Origin: an uncultured Verrucomicrobia subdivision 3 bacterium
GTDB lineage: Bacteria; Verrucomicrobiota; Verrucomicrobiae; Limisphaerales; CAMLLE01
Direction: 5' to 3'
Assembly (NCBI GenBank): GCA_946480555.1
Contig: CAMLLE010000264.1
Coordinates: forward strand, 1-5,320
Length of the DNA: 5,320 nt
How positions within the stretch are numbered: position 1 is the first letter of the stretch; each line of letters starts with the position of its first letter. Below, piece by piece: positions 424 to 2,850 of this stretch. Both the position numbers and the translations under genes were made by a program. The notes under the pieces are model-generated. The model had not been told where the DNA came from, searched no databases, and saw only the letters and a program-made list of their open reading frames with translations.

Positions 424-2850
424 TTATCCTTTCAGCATTCCGAGAAACTCCTCCTCGCTTAAAATCTTCACACCCAGTTGCTGCGCTTTTTCCAGTTTGG
501 AACCGGCTTCAGCACCTGCGAGGACGAAGCTTGTTTTCTTGCTCACGCTCCCGCTGACCTTGCCGCCCGCTGCTTCGATTTTCTCGGTGGCCTGTTCGCG
601 GGTGAGTGAGGGCAGGGTGCCGGTGAGGACAAACGTTTTCCCCGCAAACGTGCTGTTGGAGGCTGTGGCGGATAAAGCCTCGTTTTGCGGCTTGATTCCG
701 AGCTCGCGCATTCGCGCCAGCAGTTTCTGACCGGCTGCCGAATTGAGAAACTCGAGAACGCTGCGCGCTGCCACCGGGCCGACTTCCGGCAGGCGCGCCT
801 TCACGCCGCCCGCGGAAAGCCGATTTTCAATCTCGGAAATTTCGCCCTTGAGCTGGGCGTCCCGCTGCTCGCGGCTGAACTTCTCGGCTTCGGTCTTGGG
901 CGGATTCCGCCGCGATCGTGGACTGATCTCCGCGCGTTCGGCTTCCTTCAAGCCAAGATCGCGGATGTCGTGCAGCACGGCGGAGGCGGCCAGCGTTTCC
1001 AAGGTTTCATGCGTGGCGGCGAGTTGCTTGGCGGTCGCTTCACCGACATCGGAAATGGCAAGCGCGTGAATCCATCGGTGCAACGGCGCGGTCTTGCTGC
1101 GCTCCAGAGCGTCGAGGACTTTGCGCGCGTTCTTCTCGCCGAACGTGCGCGGTTCGTCGTCGGTGCCGAGGTTCAACTTCGCCAGCTTTTCGACGGTAAG
1201 ATCGAACAAATCCAGAGGCTCCCGCACGTAACCGCGTTCCACCAGTTTCTCGGCGACGATGCCGCCCAGCGATTCGATGTCGAGCGCCTTGCGTTGCGCG
1301 AAATACTCCACGCGCCGCATCAGCTGTGCGGGACAGCTCGCGACGTTCTGGCAGCGCCACGCAACTTCCTCCCCCACGTCGGTAGGGCGCGTCTCTCCGA
1401 GCGCGCCGTTTGTTACTTCCCCGACGCTGCTTTCAGTCTCACCGCCCGGCGCGCGCGGAGCGGCGCGCCCTACCTTGTCCTTCGCGATGGGGCCGCCGCA
1501 GGCCGGGCACTTGCCCGCGACATGGGCGAACAGGTCGAACTCCTTCGCGTCCTCAGGCCGCTTTGTTTTCACCACTTCGTAAACCTCCGGAATGACCATT
1601 CCCGCTTTGCGAATCACCACGGTGTCGCCGATGCGGATGTCTTTGCGGCGGATCTCGTCTTCATTGTGCAGCGTGGCGCGCGCGACGGTGGAACCTTGGA
1701 CGAACACTGGTTCGAGTTCGGCCACAGGCGTCAACACGCCGGTGCGGCCCACTTGGACTGTGATGTCGCGCAAGACGGTCTCTGCAGGCGTAATCCACGG
1801 TACCGGCTTGTGAACGATCGCGTAACCGGGCGCGCGGCTCCGGCCCGGAATTCGTTCCCAATCCGCGAGCGTGTTCACCTTGAGAACGATTCCGTCGATC
1901 TCATACGGCAGTTGCCGACGCAGGTCGCGATCTTCGTCGTAGTTCGCGACGATCTTCTCGCGATAGACGCGGAGCACTTCATCAATTCCATGGCAAACCC
2001 ACCAAAGCTTCTGCGTCGGCAAACCGAAGCGAGCGAGCGCTTCGAGCATTTCCGAATGTTTTTCAAATTCGATCCCGTCCACCGCACCCACAGCGTAAAA
2101 CACGGCGCGAATCGGGCGTTGCGCAACGAGGCGCGGATCGAGCTGCTTGAGCGTTCCGGCCGTCGCATTGCGGGCGTTTGGAAAGGTTTTCTCGCCTGCT
2201 GAAGTCATCCTGGTGTTCAGCGCTTCGAAGTCCTGGATCGACATGTAGGCTTCGCCGCGAACTTCCAGCAGCCCGGGTAATTCGATTGAACCTCCCGCCT
2301 TCAGGTGAGTCGGGATGGAACGGACGGTTCTGAGATTCGTGGTGATGTCGTCGCCCTCGGTTCCGTCGCCGCGCGTGACGCCGAGCGCCAGTTTTCCCTC
2401 GCGGTAATGAACGCTGAGCGAAACGCCGTCCACCTTCGGTTCGATGATGTATTCGATACGGTCTCGCCCGAGTTGTTTCCTCAGAGTCGCATCGAAGGCG
2501 GCCAGCTGTTGCAGCGTGTTTTCGTCCTGGACGCGATTGCGTTTCTCGCGGTCTGGTTCTTCGGCGCTGGTGGGGTGATCGCTCGCTTCAACTTTGTCGA
2601 GCGAGAGCATGGGGACCAGGTGGCGAACGCGGGCGAACTTTTCGCTGGGCGCGCCGCCGACGCGTTGGGTGGGAGAATCCGGTGTGATGAGCTGGGGAAA
2701 ATCGCGCTCAAGCTGCTGCAGTTCGGCGAAGAGCTGGTCATATTCGCGATCGGTGATCAACTGCGAGCCTTCGACGTAATAGGCATGATCGTGGCGGCGG
2801 ATCTCCTGGGCGAGTTCTGCGTGCCGGGCTTGGGCTTGCTCCAAAGTCAT
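424..2850 (-). CDS. ligA: NAD+-dependent DNA ligase LigA, enlarged (808 aa)
   Basis: LigA seals 5'-phosphate/3'-OH nicks in duplex DNA during replication and repair, using NAD+ to form a ligase-AMP intermediate; it is normally essential. All domains are present. Domain Ia spans about residues 10-45 (Y24, D34, Y37, D38). The adenylation domain has SLD near 83-85, the nucleophile K139 in EPKVDG, RGDG at 160-163, E196 in [14 protein letters not shown] at 319-326 and K348. The OB fold has VQVGRTG (366-372) and ATLHN (392-396). The zinc finger uses C448, C451, C500 and C506. A helix-hairpin-helix region covers about 590-705 and a C-terminal BRCT domain about 735-808. Compared with E. coli LigA (671 aa, from memory) there are about 22 extra residues between SLD and the catalytic lysine, about 34 between the zinc cysteine pairs (mostly the palindrome 1381-1474), and roughly 50 charged residues in the HhH region. 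The ATG start at 2850 gives the usual N-terminal distance, but no clear Shine-Dalgarno precedes it. The frame ends at TAA 426-424. Confidence 0.97.
1381..1474. repeat. In-frame palindromic element inside ligA zinc-finger loop
   Basis: The arms 1381-1408 (beginning ggtagggcgcg) and 1447-1474 (ending cgcgccctacc) match as reverse complements at 25 of 28 positions. The outer 11 bp are perfect, and the loop is 38 nt. On the ligA strand the element encodes residues 460-490, rich in G, A, P, R and E, exactly between the zinc-binding pairs C448/C451 and C500/C506. The loop between the pairs is 49 residues apart here versus 15 in E. coli LigA, and the element accounts for nearly all of the excess. 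The frame stays open and the flanking zinc-finger and HhH sequence is normal. The element is 94 bp (3n+1), so the net insertion must include about 2 further bases or an equivalent deletion; no clear target duplication is visible. The encoded segment is probably a flexible surface loop. It is analogous to Rickettsia palindromic elements, which also sit in frame inside genes; homology to them is not implied. Confidence 0.85.

Follow-up and report, generated by a model that had tools for sequence, protein, structure and literature searches.

In a REPIN, two REP units stand in inverted order with a spacer between them, and the doublet can form a single hairpin. GTAG REPs, whose stems measure 5-13 bp and whose loops measure 2-20 nt (Table 1, PMC3733652), are known in Verrucomicrobia, and some lie in frame within repair genes (Di Nocera et al. 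2013, PMC3733652). An in-frame REP in the "DNA ligase in O. terrae" (Opitutus terrae) has already been published in that paper, whose text also describes one case, recB of two Xanthomonas species, in which differing REPs lie at about one site, and discusses whether copies in loops are neutral or have mutator effects (PMC3733652). Rickettsia palindromic elements (RPEs; Ogata et al. 2000, 2002) are palindromes that lie in frame within genes, close to half of those reported being located in ORFs (PMC10969869), and the intragenic RPE-4 and RPE-6 of R. conorii are described as CGTC repeats (PMC3733652).

The whole stretch of 5,320 nucleotides analyzed here, referred to as the window, carries a ligA gene with a palindromic element inside the region encoding its zinc finger. 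The relevant features are as follows.

424 to 2850, minus strand: ligA, NAD-dependent DNA ligase of 808 amino acids; an uninterrupted ORF, open across the insert
1333 to 1353, minus strand: second zinc cysteine pair, C500 and C506 (64-sequence alignment)
1372 to 1470, minus strand: LigA residues 461-493, predicted disordered (AlphaFold, pLDDT below 50), flanked by zinc-finger strands 454-459 and 496-500
1381 to 1474, no strand assigned: inserted palindromic element of 94 bp, made up of two GTAG-type REP units in inverted order, 38 nt apart
1381 to 1408, plus strand: left arm, REP unit 1, with GTAG at 1382-1385, stem GGCGCG at 1386-1391, a 10-nt loop and stem CGCGCC at 1402-1407
1409 to 1446, no strand assigned: spacer of 38 nt separating both REP units
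1447 to 1474, minus strand: right arm, REP unit 2, with an anatomy like that of unit 1 on the minus strand (GTAG at 1473-1470)
1498 to 1509, minus strand: first zinc cysteine pair, C448 and C451 (64-sequence alignment)

The two arms (1381-1408 and 1447-1474; 28 nt each) are complementary at 25 of 28 positions (89%). A palindrome score of 19 (+1/-2 scoring) was obtained for the element, while the best shuffled score was 13 both in 20 dinucleotide shuffles of the whole window and in 60 synonymous-codon shuffles of the 250-nt ligA segment containing the element; we therefore reject a chance palindrome. The inverted-repeat search thus agrees with an earlier note on this DNA, which had reported a 94-bp element with 28-bp arms, and the uninterrupted 808-residue ORF bears out its placement of the element in frame, without a stop, between the zinc-binding cysteine pairs. 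One of the three frames of the coding strand is open through the element.

A GTAG stands at the head of the small hairpin that each arm forms, which identifies the element as two oppositely oriented GTAG-type REP units. Both arms agree with the GTAG REP definition (GTAG, a perfect 6-bp stem, a 10-nt loop), and the two units in inverted order reproduce the inverted dimers of this class. The likeness to the GTAG REPs described in PMC3733652 comprises the GTAG tag, the short stem, the inverted dimers, dispersal (for the window element, in related genomes), in-frame positions in replication and repair genes, and occurrence in Verrucomicrobia. The element is also a REP doublet able to form one hairpin (25/28 arm pairing, 38-nt spacer), which it shares with REPINs that have RAYT transposases. 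The in-frame entry into known genes that characterizes RPEs is seen in LigA and, for another repeat family (E, see below), in eight Pfam-identified ORFs. RPEs differ in lineage, and the CGTC tag of the intragenic RPE-4 and RPE-6 (PMC3733652) is absent from the window element, where the tag is GTAG.

Several intergenic palindromes lie elsewhere in the window. The top-scoring one of the whole window is found at 342-414 (score 20), not in ligA; around it, an inverted repeat with 29-nt arms (90%) occupies positions 335-422, directly past the ligA end. This repeat has matches in two of seven related genomes, and the match in G003 (C19:39803-39839) is located 14 bp beyond the G003 LigA match. A nested palindrome at 2876-3014 is matched in four of the seven related genomes, and another inverted repeat, with 21-nt arms (90%), is located at 4231-4297.

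LigA is a DNA ligase that is normally essential to bacteria. The window protein has the make-up of an NAD-dependent ligase: the four zinc cysteines are all present, as are the adenylation, OB, zinc-finger, HhH and BRCT domains. Pfam identifies the adenylation, OB, HhH and BRCT domains, and the zinc-finger model gives a sub-cut-off match to its second half alone (residues 494-508), the match being split by the insert. C448, C451, C500 and C506 are invariant in a 64-sequence alignment, in line with the earlier note's statement that the four cysteines are retained. The AlphaFold model (mean pLDDT 86.7, pTM 0.58) placed NAD-dependent ligases at the top of the Foldseek ranking, and its predicted disorder over residues 461-493 is consistent with the tolerant loop proposed earlier. 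The cysteine-to-cysteine segment is 62 residues long in the window and 34 in P0003, the row closest to the window over the rest of the protein (83% identity), which gives a net gain of 28 residues against P0003; the "about 31 residues" that the element had been said to add correspond to the length of the palindrome.

The element arms are matched in 15 of 17 related genomes (E<=0.01; source genome not among the 17), with up to 84 matches per genome, numbers that overcount elements because a palindrome matches on both strands. Related loci numbered 57 and came almost entirely from metagenome bins, the close ones being mostly titled Verrucomicrobia and several subdivision 3 or Limisphaerales. The best copy (93 bp, locus L058 of genome G006) has the full layout, is 78% identical over query positions 2-96, and sits between ORFs, one ending at 1463 and the next starting at 1658. 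Copies are thus found in the related genomes searched, the earlier note having named the lack of any other copy in the genome as a refuting result, and its proposal of a dispersed palindrome placed in frame in LigA outside Rickettsiales is supported. The plasmid collection searched gave no match. In G003, one of 20 sampled copies of the window family (family A) is in frame in a long ORF, with leucyl-tRNA-synthetase domains, so gene entry is not frequent for every family. PF01797 matches are present in all seven genomes searched; among the 15 strong ones, three have GTAG-tagged hairpins nearby and a fourth has a GTGG-tagged one. Neither this search nor the surroundings of the 15 strong matches yielded a transposase tied to family A, such as the RAYT that serves REPINs. 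One family-A match, located in L086 next to a Y1 transposase, was considered as a REPtron and rejected, the match falling inside the adjoining 298-residue ORF. That ORF (L086:1974-2870, genome G010) contains in-frame GTAG-type elements next to the Y1-type transposase.

We compared the zinc-finger loop across LigA relatives. The collection of 247 LigA rows consisted of 128 distinct loci (window included) and 119 of the best 120 proteins of 8000 scored, the remaining protein, P0001, being the window itself. Fourteen loci without a recognizable zinc finger were dropped beforehand, and L223 was left out as too short, giving 246 rows; duplicates stay in this set (for example L147 = P0080) and leave the state changes reported below unaffected. 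The loop is compact in 95 of the 246 rows (27-35 residues for the segment over the cysteine motifs), and the segment seen in the window is lacking there, as the earlier note had anticipated for close relatives. In the other 151 rows it is long (median 57, range 44-89 residues, three domain-sized loops excluded). Compact loops account for 87 of 126 rows when loci are taken alone and for 8 of 119 proteins (window excluded), the latter being the best 120 of 8000 for a long-loop query, which favors long-loop relatives.

The long loops fall into at least nine peptide-pattern families, to which we assigned letters (A-J, K, X) from the peptide patterns: D (43 rows), E (25), G (18), B (17), F (15), C (10), A (8), I (2) and J (2), the remainder comprising three loops with a large domain and eight unclassified. 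Two rows were reassigned manually (L024, P0007) and two confirmed (L019, P0010); L019 and L024 look composite. Several families begin alike, with residues of the (I/L)K(T/S/A) type. Since the long loops of relatives differ in sequence, a single conserved long loop is rejected; the earlier note had named a conserved non-palindromic loop as the outcome that would count against it, and several sequences were found instead. Mean identity over 192 same-family, same-length row pairs is 0.757 in the loop and 0.896 in the rest of LigA. The window row belongs to a nine-row group (support 99) together with four compact and four unclassified rows, and within this sample its insert therefore seems confined to its own lineage. 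In Opitutales, 24 of 37 loci have a segment of 25-28 residues, the other 13 being outside the pattern and uncounted; a stricter earlier pattern had matched 6 of 30. In G456, which we take to be Opitutus terrae, the two LigA paralogues read have no insert in the zinc-finger loop.

Some rows call for separate mention. In L032 (4333-5205), L056 (4231-5103) and L165, the zinc-finger loop site holds a domain of about 250 residues. It matches Pfam Kinase-PolyVal below cut-off in L056 and has no match in L032; 78 related proteins of 154-272 residues were identified in a search restricted to near-query lengths. The domain model is confident (pLDDT 89.5), and its kinase-like Foldseek hits are weak (best E 8e-4, TM about 0.25). 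L022, L023, L029, L035 and L040 are titled Klebsiella, Proteobacteria, Akkermansia or Thauera amid the LigA relatives, and some look mislabelled. L011 and L017 show a second, partial LigA C-terminal match about 600-700 bp downstream of the ligase.

All five families tested for dispersal (A, B, D, E and F) are dispersed genomic repeats. The following match counts take in the query itself and both palindrome strands. For the family E insert of L016, 52 matches were counted in the genome of L016 and 39 in that of L002, whose LigA also carries family E, with four and one in two further genomes and none in 8 of 12. Matches to the family B insert of L010 occur in 4 of 12 genomes (7 in its own), those to the family F insert of L025 in 7 of 12 (7 in its own, 41 in G021), and those to the family D insert of L048 in 8 of 10 (17 in its own). 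A significant inverted repeat (p<0.05, 40 shuffles each) was detected in 22 of 37 long-loop DNA loci versus 1 of 87 compact ones. An unsystematic look at the inserts revealed no evident target duplication.

Switching between loop states is frequent. On a FastTree phylogeny of LigA minus the loop, at least 85 insert-state changes are needed, and at least 63 once the 136 branches under 95 support are collapsed; changes between compact and filled alone number 35 and 25, respectively. Shuffled labels require more changes (means of 141 and 121), so insert states are partly inherited, as expected. Close pairs show the same at short range: P0032 and P0082 are 96% identical with G and D inserts, respectively, and P0075 and P0084 are 93% identical with E and B inserts, the compact L007 being 93% identical to P0075. 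P0008 and P0097 agree at all aligned positions except the start residue and residues 452-485, yet the loop is compact in one of them and filled by a B insert in the other. Flanking loop residues differ along with this insert, and the difference may reflect a recombination tract as well as insertion.

The zinc-finger loop is not the only site affected. A second loop, in the adenylation domain (residues 182-199 of L003), is extended by 8 residues or more in 32 of the 246 rows, counted by length. The lengthened versions often bear REP-like peptides, B- or C-like, of several families, which suggests a second insertion hotspot in LigA, a candidate with repeat origin for part of the rows; in the window this loop is short. 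Other genes are entered too. Of 20 family-E copies in G018 (the best-scoring distinct places outside LigA, not a random sample), nine are in frame within long ORFs, a proportion comparable to the near-half of reported RPE copies in ORFs (PMC10969869). Seven passed a strict same-frame rule, and L256 and L261 were added because in both a long Pfam-bearing ORF reads through the element. Eight of the nine ORFs have Pfam domains (AIR synthase, an aminotransferase, two class I tRNA synthetases, homocysteine methyltransferase, rRNA dimethylase, GcpE and DUF255); L257 has no Pfam match. The insert in PurM (AIR synthase) is identical in G002, the only genome sharing it among 12; at this site G006 and G001 have other sequences of similar length, and the remaining eight are shorter. 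On average, 3.75 of six frames are open in family-E copies and 3.36 in those outside genes, compared with 2.41 after shuffling, a surplus that may ease entry into genes.

We consider it highly probable that a REPIN-like repeat entered ligA in frame at the zinc-finger loop and is now a translated, predicted-disordered and tolerated passenger rather than an exaptation. Comparison among sequences supports the insertion, the dispersal and the repeated filling of the loop, and the disorder is predicted by the structural model. As the relatives hold many unrelated repeats at one spot, one LigA loop appears to take up stray DNA repeatedly as protein. Insertions would fall widely over the genome, in the GTAG families probably by single-strand transposition, and those breaking the frame or fold of a core gene would be lost by selection. 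At the tip of the zinc-finger hairpin and in one adenylation-domain loop, 20-50 extra residues would do little harm, and both loops would for that reason fill again and again. The insert would afterwards drift, and local recombination from strain to strain may also swap loop versions.

Such recombination could even be the main route, with ligA alleles exchanged between strains by homologous recombination and fresh insertion rare. The P0008/P0097 pair, differing only at the start residue and at 452-485 with the insert flanks included, is what this would produce, as are the shared leading (I/L)K(T/S/A) residues, as if an older expanded loop had been entered. We regard it as unlikely, though deserving some weight, as the family E inserts carried by L016 and L002 correspond to repeats that are abundant in both genomes and present in just 2 of the 10 others searched, and as in-frame copies also occur in other genes of G018. 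It is improbable that positive selection retains the REP-derived peptides for a change in what LigA does, be it partner binding, regulation or a mutator effect. The scarcity of compact loops in the protein set (8 of 119, from a best-120-of-8000 list favoring long-loop relatives), the three loci with the approximately 250-residue domain (Kinase-PolyVal-like in L056) and the speculation of Di Nocera et al. that REPs may have mutator effects when located in repair genes (PMC3733652) would fit such a role; on the other hand, 87 of 126 locus rows are compact, the insert is predicted disordered, and its sequence, length and family all vary. The word "exapted" in the earlier note is not supported: the loop is less conserved than the rest of LigA, 95 of 246 rows are compact, and unrelated repeats interchange.

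A different kind of role, in which the hairpin as such would be preserved for an RNA or DNA function in the ligA transcript while the protein merely tolerates it, appears very improbable. Pairing of the arms at 25 of 28 positions and the recurrence of strong inverted repeats in families A, B, E and F speak for it, but no significant inverted repeat is present in 15 of 37 long and 86 of 87 compact loops, and the pairing score is 20 versus 14 between L016 and L002, both family E. A maintained hairpin, as the earlier note had suggested, is rejected as a general rule on these counts. Ordinary low-complexity variation with chance palindromes, or an assembly error, is scarcely credible: short palindromes are common in G+C-rich DNA, but the scores exceed those of shuffles, the copies are dispersed, and the 151 long loops come from many records and sources, which rejects an assembly artefact as a general cause. 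A bolder reading is that the zinc-finger tip of LigA in this order is a true insertion port, drawing DNA more than other tolerant loops (for example through a single-strand transposition preference) and sometimes capturing useful cargo (REP peptides, the kinase-like domain of L032, L056 and L165) that rebuilds ligase regulation; this we hold to be improbable. The interpretation in the earlier note is partly supported, being correct for the insertion and too narrow overall, as the recurrent many-family hotspot, the second LigA loop and the other housekeeping genes affected all lie beyond it.

The inserts described in PMC3733652 are single, paired or clustered and treated gene by gene, whereas the LigA loop involves many families and dozens of events. 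RPEs are spread over many genes; here many families converge on one site as well. In the open-access full-text literature searched we found no description of a single site occupied by many families; with intragenic GTAG REPs and RPEs already known, the novelty lies in the many-family hotspot. It amounts to an experiment run by nature with many replicates, in which dispersed palindromes become protein at one site of a core enzyme; it draws on at least nine families of source repeats, includes compact as well as filled loops in near-identical proteins, and makes the neutrality of inserts and the rate of their origin testable. A practical consequence for this order is that a zinc-finger domain model can overlook LigA loops. 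RPE-like gene entry is also extended to larger genomes (2.3-6.7 Mb, n=17) of bacteria that, to judge by their inferred life style, are apparently free-living.
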